A stretch of 26,709 nucleotides of DNA. It comes from a virus. Position numbers and translations under genes: made by a program. This document shows positions 6,742 through 26,709 of this stretch, one piece after another. Within the stretch, counting starts at the first letter, position 1. Each line of letters starts with the position of its first letter. Under the pieces are notes generated by a model. The model worked only from the letters and a program-made list of their open reading frames with translations. It was not told the DNA's origin and ran no database searches. The stretch covers positions 1 through 26,709 of the IMG/VR virus record IMGVR_UViG_3300034378_000056; one strand, written 5' to 3'.

Positions 6742-6770
6742 TTGACTTCTAAGACACAATGTCCTATAAT
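6742..6770 (+). promoter_or_regulatory. Promoter for the terminase operon
   Basis: TTGACT at 6742-6747, exactly 17 bp of spacer, then TATAAT at 6765-6770. The -35 context (AATTTTCGCTTGACTTCTAAG) is almost identical to the one at 5073. The distance from the -10 to the terminase ATG (6780) is 9 nt, so the transcript would start at about 6777 with nearly no 5' leader. The 98-nt gap before the ATG holds nothing else evident. Confidence 0.85.
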
Positions 6771-6779
6771 TAGGGCAGA

Positions 6780-7304
6780 ATGAGCCGATTACCAGTAAAA
6801 ATCGACGAAAACGCTGAATTGCCGGCAATGCCCGATATAAGCAATGCTCAAATCGAGCTATATCTTGCTTATTTGGAAACATCCGGACGGAAGAGATATT
6901 CTGCAATTATGGCTGGCGTAGATCCTGGACGAATGGTTTATTTAATGAATAAAGACGACGATCTTAAAGCTCTCGAAATGTCTGCGATGCAAGGATACTG
7001 CGAGTTGATAGATGCCGCTGTCCACGATAGAGCAATTAATGGCACACCGAAAGGTGTTTATTTTAAGGGCCAGCGAATAGCAACTGAGCGAGTATATAGT
7101 GACACTCTTTTACTTGCATTAGCAAAAGCTCATAACCCGAAGTATCGGGATCATTTATCCGTTGACGCGAACGTCAAGGCTGGCGTTCTCGTTGTACAAA
7201 CTTCCCTAAACCCTGACGAATGGGAGAAAGAATATGGTGGAATGCGAGTTGACCAAAAAAGGATTGACGATCTATGTACGGAGTCAGATAAAGAAAAGCA
7301 GTAA
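6780..7304 (+). CDS. terS: Terminase small subunit
   Basis: The small subunit recognises the packaging site and recruits the large subunit. The 174-aa protein has a helical N-terminal domain with a likely helix-turn-helix (about residues 24-55). The later segment ERVYSDTLLLALAKAHNPKYRDH (103-125) is typical of a common phage small-terminase family. Position directly before the large terminase supports this. The ATG lies 9 nt behind a -10 box, so translation may be leaderless; the GGG at 6772-6774 is too close to serve as a normal Shine-Dalgarno site. No packaging site could be located. Confidence 0.85.
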   Translation: MSRLPVKIDENAELPAMPDISNAQIELYLAYLETSGRKRYSAIMAGVDPGRMVYLMNKDDDLKALEMSAMQGYCELIDAAVHDRAINGTPKGVYFKGQRIATERVYSDTLLLALAKAHNPKYRDHLSVDANVKAGVLVVQTSLNPDEWEKEYGGMRVDQKRIDDLCTESDKEKQ

Positions 7305-11368: not shown

Positions 11369-11410
11369 ATCGGACTCAGGAGTAAATTTCCCTTGACTTC
11401 TGAGTCCGAT
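11369..11410. promoter_or_regulatory. 11-bp inverted repeat flanking the capsid promoter -35
   Basis: ATCGGACTCAG (11369-11379) and CTGAGTCCGAT (11400-11410) are perfect inverted repeats separated by 20 nt. The right arm covers the promoter spacer immediately after the -35 box and the loop contains the -35, so a bound dimer would block the promoter. In RNA from the scaffold gene the same arms could pair and act as an attenuator, but no U tract follows. Confidence 0.65.
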
Positions 11411-11421
11411 AATATTATAAT
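11393..11421 (+). promoter_or_regulatory. Promoter for the capsid gene
   Basis: TTGACT at 11393-11398, 17-bp spacer, perfect TATAAT at 11416-11421. The TTGACTTCTGAG core repeats the element at 5073 and 6742. Transcription would start near 11428 and leave a leader of about 100 nt before the capsid ATG at 11529. Confidence 0.85.
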
Positions 11422-15077: not shown

Positions 15078-16613
15078 ATGGCAGCGGTAAATAAAATTAA
15101 TTCAAATGTAGTGGAGACAGCTTACGCTGAGGAGCAGACCATCAAGACATTGCCTGGGACTCCTGTATGGCGTCCTCTCGACGTAAATAGCTTCACCGAT
15201 TTCGGCGGTTCGATCTCCAAAGTCTCCAGAATGCCGTTCCGGACAGATAGGCAAAATCGTAAAGGTCAAACTGTTGACCTGGAAGCAGCCGGAACAGTCA
15301 ATCACGATCTCGTGCAGGCAGGCTTGCAGGATATTCTGCAAGGTTTCTTCTTCGCAGATCATCGCGTAAAAGTAGATTTTGGCGGAAGTGGTGAAGTCAC
15401 TAACGTTGATGCTACCGGCAATGACTACGAAGCCGCAAGTGGATTAGATGCGTTCGACGCAAACGATCTCGTCTTTGCATCTGGCTTCACTAATGCTGCG
15501 AACAACGGTCTCAAGACAGTGACATCTGCTGCGGCTACGTCACTGGTTGTAAGTGAAACTCTTGTCAATGAGACTCCACCTTCTGGGGCAAAGCTCGTAA
15601 AGGTGGGTCATCAATTTGCAAGCGGTGATCTCGAAGTTGATTTCACCGGCAGTCTTCCAAAATTGACCACAACCACAAAAGATCTAACCGAGCTGGATCT
15701 TGTTCCTGGTGAATTCATCTACATTGGTGGTGACGCTGCGGCAACGCAGTTTGACACCAGTGGAATGGGTTTTGCTCGTTGTAGATCCATCGCAACGAAC
15801 GAGATTGTCATTGACAAGTGTCAAGAAGATATGGCAACCGATGCCGGCACTGGTAAAACGATTCAGGTCTTCATCGGTCGAGTATTAAAGAATGAGACCG
15901 GCACTGACATTGTCCGCAGAACCTATAATATTGAACGTCAGCTTGGTGCTCCTGATGATGCACTACCAGCTCAGATCCAAAGTGAATATCTCATTGGTGC
16001 TGTACCCAATGAGCTGACCATTAATGTTCCAACTGCCGACAAAGCAATGTTGGATCTTGCGTTCGTCGCAATGGACGTTGAGCAGAGAACCGGAGCTACT
16101 GGCGTCAAGAGTGGTACAAGAATCACTCAGGCAGAAGAGTCAGCCTTTAATACTTCGTCTAATGTACCTCTCATTAATTTAGCAATAGTTAGCAACACTG
16201 ACGAAAATCCAACTCCGTTATTCGTTTTTGCCGAAGAGATGAGCATCACAATTAACAATAACGTGTCACCCGACAAAGCCATCGGCACCCTTGGTGGGTT
16301 CGATGCAAGTCACGGTAACTTTGTAGTAACTGGTACTCTAACAGCTTACTTCATGGATGTCGGTTCAGTGGCTGCCGTGAGAGATAATAGTGATGTCACG
16401 TTGGACATGCACCTTGTTAAAGAGAATGCCGGTATCACCATCGATATTCCTTTACTCGCCCTGGGTGATGGACGATTGGATGTTGCACAAAATGAAGCGA
16501 TTCGTATTCCACTGAGTCAGGAAGCAGCTATTGGAACCGGAGCGATAACTGGTTTCGATCATACGATGTTGATGTCGTTCTACGATTATCTGCCTGACGC
16601 AGCCGAATCTTAA
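15078..16613 (+). CDS. Major tail tube protein
   Basis: The 511-aa protein is all-beta in look and rich in Thr, Gly, Asp and Val. It has conserved-type segments at the N-terminus (WRPLDVNSFTDFGGSISKVS, MPFRTDRQNRKGQTVDLEAA) and a late repeat of tube-like strands (ELTINVPTADKAMLDLAFVA, EEMSITINNNVSPDKAIGTL, GTLTAYFMD). A middle insertion from about residue 95 to 290 likely forms an outward Ig-like domain. Location between the completion gene and the frameshifted chaperones is the classic place. It has AAGGAG before the ATG and a strong terminator after the stop. Confidence 0.85.
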   Translation: MAAVNKINSNVVETAYAEEQTIKTLPGTPVWRPLDVNSFTDFGGSISKVSRMPFRTDRQNRKGQTVDLEAAGTVNHDLVQAGLQDILQGFFFADHRVKVDFGGSGEVTNVDATGNDYEAASGLDAFDANDLVFASGFTNAANNGLKTVTSAAATSLVVSETLVNETPPSGAKLVKVGHQFASGDLEVDFTGSLPKLTTTTKDLTELDLVPGEFIYIGGDAAATQFDTSGMGFARCRSIATNEIVIDKCQEDMATDAGTGKTIQVFIGRVLKNETGTDIVRRTYNIERQLGAPDDALPAQIQSEYLIGAVPNELTINVPTADKAMLDLAFVAMDVEQRTGATGVKSGTRITQAEESAFNTSSNVPLINLAIVSNTDENPTPLFVFAEEMSITINNNVSPDKAIGTLGGFDASHGNFVVTGTLTAYFMDVGSVAAVRDNSDVTLDMHLVKENAGITIDIPLLALGDGRLDVAQNEAIRIPLSQEAAIGTGAITGFDHTMLMSFYDYLPDAAES

Positions 16614-16675: not shown

Positions 16676-17110
16676 ATGAGTAATCCGTTGCGAAAAATCT
16701 ATGAAACTGACACAAAAGTTGAGAAGGAAGGCGTCATCGTTGAATATGCTCCTGGTATAGAAATAAGAATAGCCAGGGCCGGTGGAGCAAATAAGAAATT
16801 TGCAAAAGTAATGACCAGACTTGCTCGTCCGCATCGCCGTGCAATTCAAACCAATTCGATCAGTGAAGAAATTTTGACGAACATGTTCATTACAGCTTAT
16901 GCCCAGACTATTGTTCTTGATTGGAAAGGTTTTACCAAAGACCTTATCACCCACGACGATGCCGATGCAGAAATAGAGCTGGACTTCAACCAGGAAAATG
17001 TCGAAGCTGTTCTTCATGCACAACCGAATCTCTTCAAAGATATTCAAGAGACCGCTGATAATATTGCGGTCTTCCGAGCTGAAATATTGGAGAGTGATTC
17101 GGGAAACTGA
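16676..17110 (+). CDS. Tail assembly chaperone, gpG-like
   Basis: The 144-aa protein is small, alpha/beta and lies between the tube and the tape measure, where lambda gpG-type chaperones sit; these bind the tape measure and help tube polymerisation. It starts with MSNPLRKIYETDTKVEKEGV, has a two-strand N-terminal part and a helical C-terminal part. Its final codons contain GGGAAAC at 17101-17107, the type of slippery site used for -1 frameshifting into the next frame. Most product ends at the TGA (17108-17110); a fraction continues as a G-T fusion. Confidence 0.85.
   Translation: MSNPLRKIYETDTKVEKEGVIVEYAPGIEIRIARAGGANKKFAKVMTRLARPHRRAIQTNSISEEILTNMFITAYAQTIVLDWKGFTKDLITHDDADAEIELDFNQENVEAVLHAQPNLFKDIQETADNIAVFRAEILESDSGN
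17101..17107 (+). promoter_or_regulatory. -1 ribosomal frameshift slippery site GGGAAAC
   Basis: In the zero frame the sequence reads G GGA AAC, and after a one-base backward slip it reads GGG AAA, the ideal X-XXY-YYZ heptamer. The zero-frame stop TGA follows immediately. Lambda uses GGGAAAG at the same place. No separate downstream pseudoknot was modelled. Confidence 0.88.
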
Positions 17111-17442
17111 TTGACTGCCTGCTCTACTATCTTGAGATTGGGCAGGCCGAACAACGCATGATCCGTGAGTGTTTTCGCAGGAAGCGACCACTGCCTGAAC
17201 GTATACAAAATGCTCCAGAGCTACTTACTGGTCTGGAGCTTTACTTTGAAGCATTCATTGAGTTGAACACTTGCCGAAGTACAGGCTGGTCTCCTGGGCC
17301 TATTCCCGCATGGTGTATCGATGAGTATAGTTGTCGTCTGAATCTAACAGAAGACGAAGCAGAAGATTTGCTCTATCACATACGTAAAATGGACGCAGCT
17401 TTTTTAGAACATATTGCTAAGAAAAACAAAGATTCTGCTTGA
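17107..17442 (+). CDS. Frameshift extension of the tail chaperone (gpT-like part)
   Basis: This frame is one base behind the gpG-like gene and opens just after a TGA at 17095-17097, so it has no room for its own upstream gene. Slipping at 17101-17107 joins it as positions 16676-17107 plus 17107-17442, giving a fusion of about 255 aa. The extension starts LIDCLLYYLEIGQAEQRMIR and is mainly helical, with acidic and hydrophobic runs such as NLTEDEAEDLLYHIRKMDAA. An ATG at 17158 is in this frame but has no ribosome site, which supports production by frameshift. In lambda the T part recruits the tape measure. Confidence 0.85.
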   Translation: MIDCLLYYLEIGQAEQRMIRECFRRKRPLPERIQNAPELLTGLELYFEAFIELNTCRSTGWSPGPIPAWCIDEYSCRLNLTEDEAEDLLYHIRKMDAAFLEHIAKKNKDSA

Positions 17443-17467
17443 AATCAACGATATTATCGGGTATAAT
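17439..17467 (+). promoter_or_regulatory. Promoter before the gp10-like tail gene
   Basis: TTGAAA (17439-17444), a 17-bp spacer, TATAAT (17462-17467). The start codon at 17474 is only 6 nt after the -10, so the mRNA would start at or next to the ATG. The -35 overlaps the end of the chaperone extension. Confidence 0.7.
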
Positions 17468-17473
17468 ACGGGT

Positions 17474-17905
17474 ATGGCACGAAGCTTTGCTAAAAGAATG
17501 GAAGCGGTTGGTGATGTGTTGTTTTTCAACGTATCGAAGACTATACGTAGAGCCGGAATGGCGGCTACTAATGAAGTCGTGCTTAGAACGCCGGTGAAGA
17601 CTGGCCGTGCTCGAATTAATTGGCGAGTAGGACTTGGCACTTTTACAACGAAAGAGATTGAAGCACCTGACACTGACAATAGAAATACGAATGCACAAGT
17701 TGCTGCTGCACAAGCGTTAATTAACGCATCAAATACATTGAAAAATTGGAAAGTTGGAAAAGGTAATATTTATATTGCAAATCCGATACATTATATTACA
17801 GATCTTGATGAAGGATCATCTCGTCAAGCACGAGCTGGTATGACTAAATTTGCCATCGCCGCAGCTCGTGATGTTCTGAGAACAGGAAGGTTACTCCGTG
17901 GCTGA
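17474..17905 (+). CDS. HK97 gp10-like tail protein
   Basis: The 143-aa protein matches the general HK97 gp10-like pattern: a helical start with ARSFAKRMEAVGDVLF, then TPVKTGRARINWRVG (residues 39-53), and a later YITDLDEGSSRQARAGM segment. Proteins of this type are used in head-tail joining or tail completion. I chose ATG 17474 because an upstream in-frame ATG at 17414 lies in the preceding gene and because of the promoter geometry. Being after the chaperones rather than before the tube gene is unusual for a gp10-like gene. It overlaps the tape measure start by 8 nt. Confidence 0.75.
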   Translation: MARSFAKRMEAVGDVLFFNVSKTIRRAGMAATNEVVLRTPVKTGRARINWRVGLGTFTTKEIEAPDTDNRNTNAQVAAAQALINASNTLKNWKVGKGNIYIANPIHYITDLDEGSSRQARAGMTKFAIAAARDVLRTGRLLRG

Positions 17906-20363
17906 TAAAAAAGAAATACTACTCATTGAAATTCGTGAAGATGGTGCCCGCGTTGTTAAGAAGAATATTGCAGATGTCGGTAAAGCTGGCACTGCCACTA
18001 CGAATCAAATGGATAAACTAAAAGGAGTCCTTGCTGGATTGATCTCTGCAAAAGTATTGCGTGACACTATCCTGCTCGCAGACTCTTATGCCAATATGCT
18101 TAACCGACTTAGAGTTGTCACATCAGGCACCTGGGAATTGCACGCAGCGATGGATGCTGTATTCAAGATGAGTCGTGAAACAAGAACAGCACTTGAAGCA
18201 AATATTGACATGTATTCTCGTATTGCTATTAACACTAAACAGATGGGTTTGGGGATGAAAGAAGTTGTGCGATTTGCTACACAGTTAAACCACGCCATCA
18301 TCCTATCTGGTGTCACTGCCCGTGAAGCTCAGTGGGGTATGGTTCAGTTTTCTCAGGGTCTTGCCGCTGGTGCTCTGCGTGGCGACGAGCTTCGTGCAGT
18401 TATGGAACAGTTACCGATTGTTACCCAAACACTAACTCGCTTTCTGGGCATTGGTCGAGGCGAGCTACGAAAGTGGGCATTCGAGGGTCGTGTCACTACC
18501 CAGGTAATCATTGACGCATTTAACGATGCAGAAAAGAGTTTGGCTGAAAGATTTGGTAGACGTATTCCGACAGTGGATCAGGCATTAACTGTTCTTCATA
18601 GCTCTATAACTCAATTCGTCGGTAGTATGGATCAAGCTATTCAAGGGACATCTTCTCTTGCCAAAGCGATTCTTTGGTTAGGCGATAATATGCACACAAT
18701 TGGAAGAATTGTTTTAATTGTCGGTACAATGCTTGGTACAGTTTTTCTCAAGAATTTAATTATGATCATTGCCCAGATGAAATTATTTAATTTGTCTGTG
18801 CTTGCAGTACATCCGTTAGCAACTGCTTTTCTTGCAACTGCTGCTGCGGTAGTTATTTTCTCAGACAAAATTAGAATTGCTAAAGATTCGTCAGCTACAC
18901 TATCGGATGTATTTAAGGTTCTTGGTGAAAGGGCTAAGACTGCATATCGCGTTTTGCGTGAAGGTTTAGGATCTTTAGTCAGTGGTCTTAGAATCCAGAG
19001 AGAATTTGAAGTGACACTTGAAAGTGTAGTCACTGACGCAGCTAAATTTATAGATAAATTTCTTGGTCTATTTGTTGGTGCGGGTCAGGTAATAAAACGT
19101 ATTTTTGAGATCATACCTAATGACGCAAAAAGTGCGTGGAATGATATACTTGGTGGTGTCGAAGTAATTGTAGATTACGTCAAGGCAGTGTTCCAAACTA
19201 TGGGTGATTCGATTAAGATTTTCGCATTGAACGTCAAAGCTGCAATGATCGCAATGTCAGGGGCAGTTAGACAAGCCTTGGCTGGCAATGTTTCGTTGGC
19301 GAAGGATTATGCGGATCAAATGGCGTTCTCACTCAAGAAAGCAGCCACCGATGGGTTCACGAATTTCTCTGATATTTTGAATAGAAATCTCTTAAAAGCT
19401 GCCGACGAAGACACATTAGCTGGAGCAAGATTCAAAATAGAATCGGCTGGTGAATCACTTGCCGAAGCATTCATACGTGGTTTTGATATGTCGGATCTTA
19501 TTACTACTGGTGTCACCGACTTATTTGAACAAGCGAAAGCTCTTTCTGGTGAGCTTGCTGGCGGCCCTGGTGAACCTGGAGCAGCTATATTTTCTCCGAC
19601 GCCAGTCCAAACTCAGCTATTAAAAGATATGATCGGTGACGTTGGTTCAATAAATAATAAGATGTTACAGTTAAAGGAATTGTGGGAAGCCATAAATACA
19701 CAGCAGCCAGGGACTGAGGGTATGCAAGCTACGTTAGATCAAGTCAATCGAAAAATGGCCGAGTTAAGATTAAAAGCACTGTCGAGTAATACTGATGTTA
19801 TTTCTGGTTTCCAACGTGGCTCTATAAAACTCGGTCTTGAGATAAGTAATTTTGCTACACTGGCTGAGAAAACAGTCACTAATGCGTTTAGCTCTATGGA
19901 AGACGCTTTGGTTCAATTTGTTACAACTGGTAAAGCTGATTTTAAGGGATTAGTTGATTCAATGCTTGCTGATATGACACGATTATTGGCACGACAAGCA
20001 TTAACGGGCATACTTAATACGTTGTCTCCTGACGGTGGTGGAATCCTTGGCGTTCTCGCTGGCGTTCTCGCTGGTGGTAGTGGTGGTAGTGGCGCTGCAC
20101 TTCCAGGCAGAGCTAATGGCGGGCCAGTTTCTCCAGGCATGTCTTATATGGTTGGCGAACGCGGCAGACCTGAGATCTTCCAGCCCGCACAACCTGGGCA
20201 TGTGACACCAACTCAACAAATAGCACAGGCACCACTGGCCCAGGAAGGTGACGTCGTAATTCTTAATGTGGCGAGTGAAGAGGAAGCACTACGTGTAATG
20301 GCAGGCCATGAAGGCAAGAGAATAATCAGAAATGAAATTAGACTCACACAAAGTGGGAGATAA
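17898..20363 (+). CDS. Tape measure protein
   Basis: The tape measure sets tail length and is ejected before DNA. At 821 aa it is the largest complete protein in the window. The N-terminal domain (about residues 30-250) has RVVTSGTWELHAAM, LRGDELRAVMEQLPIVTQ and GELRKWAFEGRVTTQV, typical of the tape measure N-terminal family. Two hydrophobic stretches lie at about 269-293 and 301-322. The C-terminus is Gly/Ala-rich with GGPVSPGMSYMVGERGRPE, a common tape-measure ending. It starts with GTG (17898) inside the preceding gene. Short tandem repeats near 20049-20090 encode the Gly-rich part. Confidence 0.93.
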   Translation: MADKKEILLIEIREDGARVVKKNIADVGKAGTATTNQMDKLKGVLAGLISAKVLRDTILLADSYANMLNRLRVVTSGTWELHAAMDAVFKMSRETRTALEANIDMYSRIAINTKQMGLGMKEVVRFATQLNHAIILSGVTAREAQWGMVQFSQGLAAGALRGDELRAVMEQLPIVTQTLTRFLGIGRGELRKWAFEGRVTTQVIIDAFNDAEKSLAERFGRRIPTVDQALTVLHSSITQFVGSMDQAIQGTSSLAKAILWLGDNMHTIGRIVLIVGTMLGTVFLKNLIMIIAQMKLFNLSVLAVHPLATAFLATAAAVVIFSDKIRIAKDSSATLSDVFKVLGERAKTAYRVLREGLGSLVSGLRIQREFEVTLESVVTDAAKFIDKFLGLFVGAGQVIKRIFEIIPNDAKSAWNDILGGVEVIVDYVKAVFQTMGDSIKIFALNVKAAMIAMSGAVRQALAGNVSLAKDYADQMAFSLKKAATDGFTNFSDILNRNLLKAADEDTLAGARFKIESAGESLAEAFIRGFDMSDLITTGVTDLFEQAKALSGELAGGPGEPGAAIFSPTPVQTQLLKDMIGDVGSINNKMLQLKELWEAINTQQPGTEGMQATLDQVNRKMAELRLKALSSNTDVISGFQRGSIKLGLEISNFATLAEKTVTNAFSSMEDALVQFVTTGKADFKGLVDSMLADMTRLLARQALTGILNTLSPDGGGILGVLAGVLAGGSGGSGAALPGRANGGPVSPGMSYMVGERGRPEIFQPAQPGHVTPTQQIAQAPLAQEGDVVILNVASEEEALRVMAGHEGKRIIRNEIRLTQSGR
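20049..20090 (+). repeat. Short tandem repeats in the tape measure gene
   Basis: Two exact copies of a 12-bp unit (GGCGTTCTCGCT, 20049-20060 and 20061-20072) are followed by two exact copies of a 9-bp unit (GGTGGTAGT, 20073-20081 and 20082-20090). They encode GVLA-GVLA then GGS-GGS and preserve the frame. Slippage here would change the length of the Gly-rich hinge. Confidence 0.85.
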
Positions 20364-24818: not shown

Positions 24819-26709
24819 TGGCCGAATATAAATTCAACATTGGGGCCTACCAAGGCGATCAGGATGATGGCAAGTGGGATTTTAATATTGGTGCGGCTCA
24901 AACAGATAAACTGTTATTTGCAGATGTAGATAAAATCATCGCAGGCGTGGGATCGCTCGATATTGCTGGCATGAATATTGATGTTGACGTCACTGGAATT
25001 GATCTTGAAGCTGCTGGCTCGCTTGATATTGATGCGATGAACGTTTCCAACACTTTCAACATAGGTCATGTGTTATCAGATATTACGACATTCATTCGTC
25101 CAGGACAAGATCCAGACTGTGATCAAGGCTCGGCTGTAGTTAATAATTGGTCAGCTCCTATACCGATAGAGACAGACGAATTGACTGGAGTGGGCACGCA
25201 TGATCAAAAAAGTCCAAGTGCAATGGACGAAAATGATTTTACTGGTGCTGGACAGGTGAGAGGCCATGAATTTACGTGGTATGAGCTGACTCATTTAATA
25301 CCTCGTGTTGTTCAAGAATTAGGCAATCTTGTATCAGAACAAGTTATTAATTGTGATTTATATAATGCAGATCGTAATGATAAAATTACAGTGACATCAA
25401 TTACCAATAATCTTGGTTATGGTATTGACGTAGCTGGCGTGCCATCAACACCGTTTGATATTGAATCGCAAGACAGCCTTGAGTTTACTTTGACTGTTAA
25501 GACTGTTGGTGATTTAACAATCGACGCATCATATACGCTTCATACAACCGTAGGTGATTATGTAATCTATATTACTGGATCTCGTATTGTGATGTTCCCG
25601 TATCGTCCGGAAGCTCCTCTGCGTGAGCATCTGATTTTTGATACAAAGATTATAGAGGCCGTAGATGGTTCTGAGCAACGAATAGCGAATCGACAATATC
25701 CTCGTGGTATGTTTGAAGCGACATATAAAGAAGGCCAGCAATTCATCGAAATGCTTTTATTTGATCGTCAAGCAAAGATCGTTGCAGTGCCTGCGTGGCA
25801 TGAGCCAGCTTTCTTAGATGGGCCTTATTCTGCCGGTGTAGATACAATCAATGTTAATACTACTAACTACTCAAACTTTTATGTTGGTGGATATGTAGTT
25901 ATAATTGAAGATGAATACACCTATGATGCGTTGAAGATTAAATCAATGACTGCAACGTCACTAACTTTTGAATCTCCATTAAGCAATAACTATACTAAAA
26001 GAGCACAAGTGATGCCGCTACTCACAACATATATCGAAGCTTCGGCAGCGTCGCTCAAAAGGCCATATAACCATCAATATTTCAATTTGCGAATTCATAT
26101 TTATCCGGAAGTTAATGATATTGCTTCTGCTGCGGCATGGCCGACATATAATAGTGAGCCATTTATGAGCGGTAATAATTTGATTGATGGTGGACAACTT
26201 GCAGAAGCTATTCGCACCAAAATCTTCGTTGTCGACAATCTTACTGGGCTTCGTACACAGCATTCAGCGTGGGATCATAGTAAGCGATATAGTAAAAAAG
26301 GCTGGAAGACGAGTAGTCGACAAGAGCTGTGGGAATTACGTCAGCTCCTACACTATCTCAAGGGTCGACAGGTAGGTTTCTATATTCCGACTTTCTGGAA
26401 AGACGTCACTCCAACTCAGACTTTAGCTATTGGTACTCTGACTATGACTATAGCCAATATTGGTTATAAAGTCAATGCCCAAGAGAGATGGCCGAAACAA
26501 GTAATTCGCGTTCACTTAAAATCAGGCACCATTTTAACCAGGACTATTCAGAATAGCTCAATTGTGAGCAATACGGAAGAGCAATTGACTGTAGACACTG
26601 CTTGGCCGTCCACATATACTGTTGATGACATTGAAAGAGTAGAATTTTTAGAAAAAGTCAGATTAGATGTTGACGACATCGTCATTGTTCATTATAATGG
26701 TTTAGGACA
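24818..26709 (+). CDS. Large tail-associated protein, truncated by the window edge
   Basis: An open frame of 630 codons starts at ATG 24818, which overlaps the spike stop, and runs to the window edge with no stop. The first 75 residues contain the repeat GSLDIAGMNIDVDVTG then GSLDIDAMNV. The remainder is a long beta-rich protein with RQYPRGMFEATYKEGQQFIE, AVPAWHEPAFLDGPYSAGVD, ELWELRQLLHYLKGRQVGFY and GTLTMTIANIGYK. The middle part looks like conserved tail-tip proteins, possibly a distal-tail or hub component. No peptidase or lysozyme motif is visible in this part. Function is inferred from position after the spike gene only. Confidence 0.85.
   Translation, partial: MAEYKFNIGAYQGDQDDGKWDFNIGAAQTDKLLFADVDKIIAGVGSLDIAGMNIDVDVTGIDLEAAGSLDIDAMNVSNTFNIGHVLSDITTFIRPGQDPDCDQGSAVVNNWSAPIPIETDELTGVGTHDQKSPSAMDENDFTGAGQVRGHEFTWYELTHLIPRVVQELGNLVSEQVINCDLYNADRNDKITVTSITNNLGYGIDVAGVPSTPFDIESQDSLEFTLTVKTVGDLTIDASYTLHTTVGDYVIYITGSRIVMFPYRPEAPLREHLIFDTKIIEAVDGSEQRIANRQYPRGMFEATYKEGQQFIEMLLFDRQAKIVAVPAWHEPAFLDGPYSAGVDTINVNTTNYSNFYVGGYVVIIEDEYTYDALKIKSMTATSLTFESPLSNNYTKRAQVMPLLTTYIEASAASLKRPYNHQYFNLRIHIYPEVNDIASAAAWPTYNSEPFMSGNNLIDGGQLAEAIRTKIFVVDNLTGLRTQHSAWDHSKRYSKKGWKTSSRQELWELRQLLHYLKGRQVGFYIPTFWKDVTPTQTLAIGTLTMTIANIGYKVNAQERWPKQVIRVHLKSGTILTRTIQNSSIVSNTEEQLTVDTAWPSTYTVDDIERVEFLEKVRLDVDDIVIVHYNGLG

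Follow-up and report, generated by a model that had tools for sequence, protein, structure and literature searches.

Two tail assembly chaperones encoded in the window, our term for the whole 26,709-nucleotide stretch analyzed here (IMG/VR virus record IMGVR_UViG_3300034378_000056), are almost certainly joined by programmed −1 ribosomal frameshifting of the phage λ G/GT type. Several lines of evidence agree on this reading, which an earlier note on this DNA had put forward: the protein families, the gene order, a slippery heptamer that is conserved and exchanged in blocks among relatives, the coding signature of the −1 frame, the lack of a conserved start for the second gene, and published or annotated homologues in phages KL1, Sonora, and RcSimone-Hastad. 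The G/GT frameshift is textbook knowledge for long-tailed phages and has already been described in a relative, KL1. Below, the two genes are called G and T and the fusion GT (Table 1).

The heptamer GGGAAAC supplies the final two sense codons of the G gene (GGA AAC, then TGA). Read directly, the −1 frame runs GGG AAA CTG ATT GAC and stays open until the stop at 17440-17442, which gives a predicted fusion of 144+111 = 255 aa. The earlier note had thus read the site correctly in placing G GGA AAC just before the stop of the 144-aa frame, in following a −1 slip into an open frame that ends at 17442, in computing a fusion of about 255 aa, and in locating a −1-frame stop at 17095-17097, where a TGA is indeed present. 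Of the span it assigned to the feature, 17090-17442, the end is exact and the start merely approximate, the heptamer itself occupying 17101-17107. It had also named 17158 as the sole ATG of the second frame; this is the first, and a second lies at 17389.

Table 1. Coordinates of the frameshift site and the neighboring genes in the window
Feature	Position	Strand	Evidence
Tail tube (major tail) protein gene, upstream	15078..16613	+	Pfam PF18906 Phage_tube_2, E 2e-20
G-type tail assembly chaperone gene	16676..17110	+	144 codons, 0 frame, last codons GAT TCG GGA AAC TGA; phrog_313 E 4e-20, phrog_8233 E 7e-7
Slippery heptamer G GGA AAC	17101..17107	+	Sequence; homologous position occupied by GGGAAAC or AAAAAAC in 55/56 distinct junctions
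0-frame stop TGA abutting the heptamer	17108..17110	+	Sequence; stop right after AAC in 46/56 junctions
T domain, −1 frame after the slip	17107..17442	+	111 codons and stop; phrog_3817 E 1e-31, phrog_8233 E 4e-19, PF23812 Phage_TAC_18 E 1.5e-16
Candidate stimulatory stem-loop	17117..17147	+	17117-17124 paired with 17140-17147, 8 bp, 9 nt past the heptamer; MFE fold
Tail completion/Neck1 protein gene, between GT and the tape measure gene	17474..17905	+	phrog_169 E 1e-23
Tape measure protein gene	17898..20363	+	Pfam TMP_3 E 2e-46, phrog_3336 E 1e-89

Both halves match tail assembly chaperone families, G that of phrog_313 and T those of phrog_3817 and Pfam PF23812, the latter with 60.7 bits against a cut-off of 27; PHROGs have no curated cut-offs, and their matches are given as E-values. 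A further family, phrog_8233, is colinear with both halves (G corresponds to profile positions 9-137 and T to 139-251), as a single protein with its joint at the slip. The overlapping ORF pair, the second member of which is in the −1 frame, sits between the major tail and tape measure genes, the order being tail terminator, tail tube protein, G and T, one intervening neck protein, and tape measure protein. Searches for solved-structure relatives, by sequence for G or T and by fold for the model of G, returned none that was convincing.

The closest described counterpart is Burkholderia phage KL1, in which gp18/gp19 were reported in 2012 to carry GGGAAAC immediately upstream of a TGA, with a tail gene between the pair and the tape measure gene (PMC3483164). 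T and G are homologous to the KL1 proteins (45% over 99 aa and 29%, respectively), GGGAAAC abuts the TGA of the 142-aa KL1 gene, and an intervening tail protein precedes the tape measure gene as in the window. The differences are confined to lengths and sequence, the fusion being 264 aa in KL1 and 255 aa here. The same chaperone families, in the order tail tube, G, T, neck, tape measure, occur in YuA/M6 and PaMx25 (Pseudomonas), Sonora (Stenotrophomonas), and RcSimone-Hastad (Rhodobacter); YuA, PaMx25, Sonora, RcSpartan, and CN1 share the neighbor order of the window. The heptamer is GGGAAAC in YuA/M6, Sonora, and RcSimone-Hastad and AAAAAAC in PaMx25. In YuA and its relatives, however, about 45 nt separate the heptamer from the G stop downstream, whereas in the window the two abut. 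Joined annotations are found in Sonora (as "frameshift product"), RcSimone-Hastad, and KL1.

The likeness to λ gpG/gpGT lies in a −1 slip near the end of a chaperone gene between the tail tube and tape measure genes, with a short chaperone and a rarer extended one; both gpG/gpGT and the general G/GT frameshift were reportedly treated by Xu, Hendrix and Duda in 2004. The λ chaperones belong to another sequence family, the λ slippery heptamer is GGGAAAG rather than the GGGAAAC of the window, and the neck gene that separates GT from the tape measure gene is a feature of the window. A gene in that position is likewise listed for HK97 and SPP1 (PMC3483164). The general mechanism has been reviewed, and GGGAAAC and AAAAAAC are both listed as sites of haloarchaeal tailed viruses (PMC5009743).

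On its own, the heptamer is weak evidence and proves nothing, since GGGAAAC is expected about 1.6 times at this composition (it occurs once on the + strand of the window). Its position sets it apart: the ORFs of the window, 32 in all, contain 16 in-frame X XXY YYZ heptamers, and no other borders a stop or opens a long −1 frame (111 codons vs 49 for the next longest). What excludes chance is conservation. We gathered relatives from IMG/VR and isolate phages and removed identical junctions, which left 56 distinct ones. A perfect X XXY YYZ stands at the homologous position in 55 of them (GGGAAAC in 31, AAAAAAC in 24), and this conservation extends over T identities as low as about 31%. The exception, L053, has CGAAAAT at the expected codon and a candidate A AAT TTA 3 nt on, the 0 frame not being fixed by its short upstream sequence. 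The same result disposes of the notion that a sequencing error or gene decay produced the frame break: although the window is known from a single contig, the identical break recurs at the same heptamer in these 55 junctions, isolate genomes included, and an error or decay is thereby already excluded, its probability being practically nil.

The way the heptamer varies is also informative. In a tree built from the T domain without the slip residues, XXX exchanges GGG and AAA as a three-base block, without intermediates, about 16 times, 6 of these being forced by well-supported branches; the figure of 16 is the fewest changes and is approximate, since many branches are poorly supported. The need for all three X bases to match is explained by tandem-tRNA slippage on X XXY YYZ. 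We also considered a fusion mRNA made when RNA polymerase, rather than the ribosome, slips on a run of A, as the A6 of AAAAAAC in 24/56 junctions might suggest. However, the window and 30 others carry GGGAAAC, with runs of three only, and the alternation between GGG AAA and AAA AAA preserves tandem tRNA re-pairing, not run length. We rejected polymerase slippage on account of these sites without a long run and regard it as extremely improbable.

Past the heptamer, the 0-frame stop is further downstream in a small number of junctions, those of the YuA group among them, so that an abutting stop is not essential. The last heptamer base is always C across the chaperone family (L053 aside). We entertain, as a rather doubtful proposal, that GGGAAAC and AAAAAAC are equivalent AAC-type heptamers which, with the nearby stem, hold the rate constant and are tuned to hosts that favor AAC rather than AAG. 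An equally good reason for the constant final C would be that it begins an invariant leucine codon (CTN) in the −1 frame. In Escherichia coli, heptamers of the AAG type slip more than those of the AAC type (PMC5009743), which makes the efficiency in the host of this phage uncertain.

Coding in the −1 frame begins at the slip itself. Among 14 close relatives, the 51 nt from the heptamer to the ATG at 17158 show 251, 103, and 631 differences at −1-frame positions 1, 2, and 3, and in the 46 nt upstream of the heptamer the excess of differences falls on 0-frame third positions; the third-position bias thus moves to the −1 frame immediately past the heptamer. K2 and L3, residues that ribosomes would read only once they had slipped, do not vary in the alignment of T. 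These observations bear on the possibility that T is an independent gene, expressed from an internal start or by termination-reinitiation after the G stop. Such a reading could draw on the in-frame ATG at 17158, about 50 nt downstream of that stop, and on the many GenBank records in which T is annotated as a shorter separate gene. Yet the codons ahead of this ATG are conserved at the protein level, with the third-position bias just described, and 5 of 14 near relatives have ATC, ATT, or ATA in place of the ATG itself. Across the family, the first possible ATG, GTG, or TTG of T wanders from +15 to beyond +200, and only five junctions have an open start upstream of the slip; no start codon of the second ORF is conserved, and an X XXY YYZ heptamer would be needless for reinitiation. 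In addition, the first T helix in the AlphaFold model (residues 2-26, mean pLDDT 90) begins at the slip and spans the candidate start M20, so that a start at residue 20 would be predicted to cut away most of it. From the coding bias, the invariance of K2 and L3, the loss of the ATG at 17158, and the first helix, we conclude that internal initiation of T is unlikely, and an independent T gene, reinitiation included, seems to us very improbable.

The earlier note had also named a stimulatory stem or pseudoknot downstream of the slip as something to look for; structure there is favored across the family but weak in the window. Such a structure is common in G/GT frameshifts, though not a requirement. 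The 8-bp stem of the window is paired at 88% of its cells in 14 relatives, vs 39-49% for slid versions. With synonymous recoding as the control, z averages −1.7 ± 0.2 over the family in the first 54 nt past the slip, where structure is strongest; it dips again, to −1.3, at +60, lies at about 0 past +120 in T, and runs from −0.4 to −0.7 in G. These scores come from related loci and hence are not independent samples. The stem of the window itself is not exceptional (z −0.9; synonymous control p 0.16), and covariation in the stem among the 14 near relatives did not rise above shuffles. A stimulatory stem is therefore likely for the family and plausible in this window. We also considered an upstream Shine-Dalgarno-like stimulator, a GGAG lying 8 nt before the heptamer in the window, and rejected it as a feature of the family: anti-SD pairing is no stronger than under synonymous recoding (55 junctions, mean z −0.17 ± 0.15).

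The frameshift would operate as follows. Most ribosomes would finish G and stop at its TGA (17108-17110). A minority, on reaching the heptamer with P-site GGA and A-site AAC, would slip one base back, their tRNAs re-pairing with GGG and AAA, and would read 111 more codons to produce the 255-aa GT fusion; the candidate stem-loop 9 nt downstream would probably stimulate this slip. By analogy with λ, G would coat the tape measure protein, while the tail tube protein would be recruited by GT, the rarer of the two. The fixed fraction of fusion that the earlier note suggested would likewise be an extrapolation from λ. Our analysis demonstrates the anatomy of the site, the homology, the conservation of the heptamer, and coding in the −1 frame; from these and from λ we infer the slip, its rate, and the roles of both proteins.

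Understanding of tail assembly is unchanged by this frameshift site. Its use lies in correct gene models for the many public records that shorten or omit T, and the 55 aligned junctions offer a clean natural series for the evolution of slippery heptamers. In the records of PaMx25, CN1, Bhz55, Knedl, BcepGomr, and YuA, T is either given as a separate gene starting past the heptamer or omitted (unannotated in YuA, a truncated separate gene in PaMx25); such T annotations, comparable to 17158-17442 here, look like truncated gene models.

In the stretch 17439-17474, a near-consensus sigma-70 promoter, TTGAAA-N17-TATAAT, overlaps the stop codon of T. The ATG of the neck gene at 17474 is 7 nt past the TATAAT, at the expected transcription start, and a leaderless neck gene mRNA is possible. 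The TATAAT and the spacing are kept in 13/14 close relatives and absent from the distant relatives sampled; in the YuA record, a high-activity promoter of the −24/−12 type is annotated in this position. On the + strand of the window there are five TTGA...TATAAT sites, all with 17-nt spacers (2140-2168, 6742-6770, 11393-11421, 17439-17467, and 26670-26698), vs 0.4 expected. Two of the five precede the ORF at 6780 and the major capsid gene (11529), which suggests host-type promoters within the structural region. The last 1.9 kb (24819-26709) holds no + strand ORF of at least 80 aa wholly inside the window and is possibly a gene running past the contig end or a non-coding stretch. Near the other end, a Cytidine/deoxycytidylate deaminase gene (PF00383; 293-748) adjoins a DUF4326 gene (745-1029).
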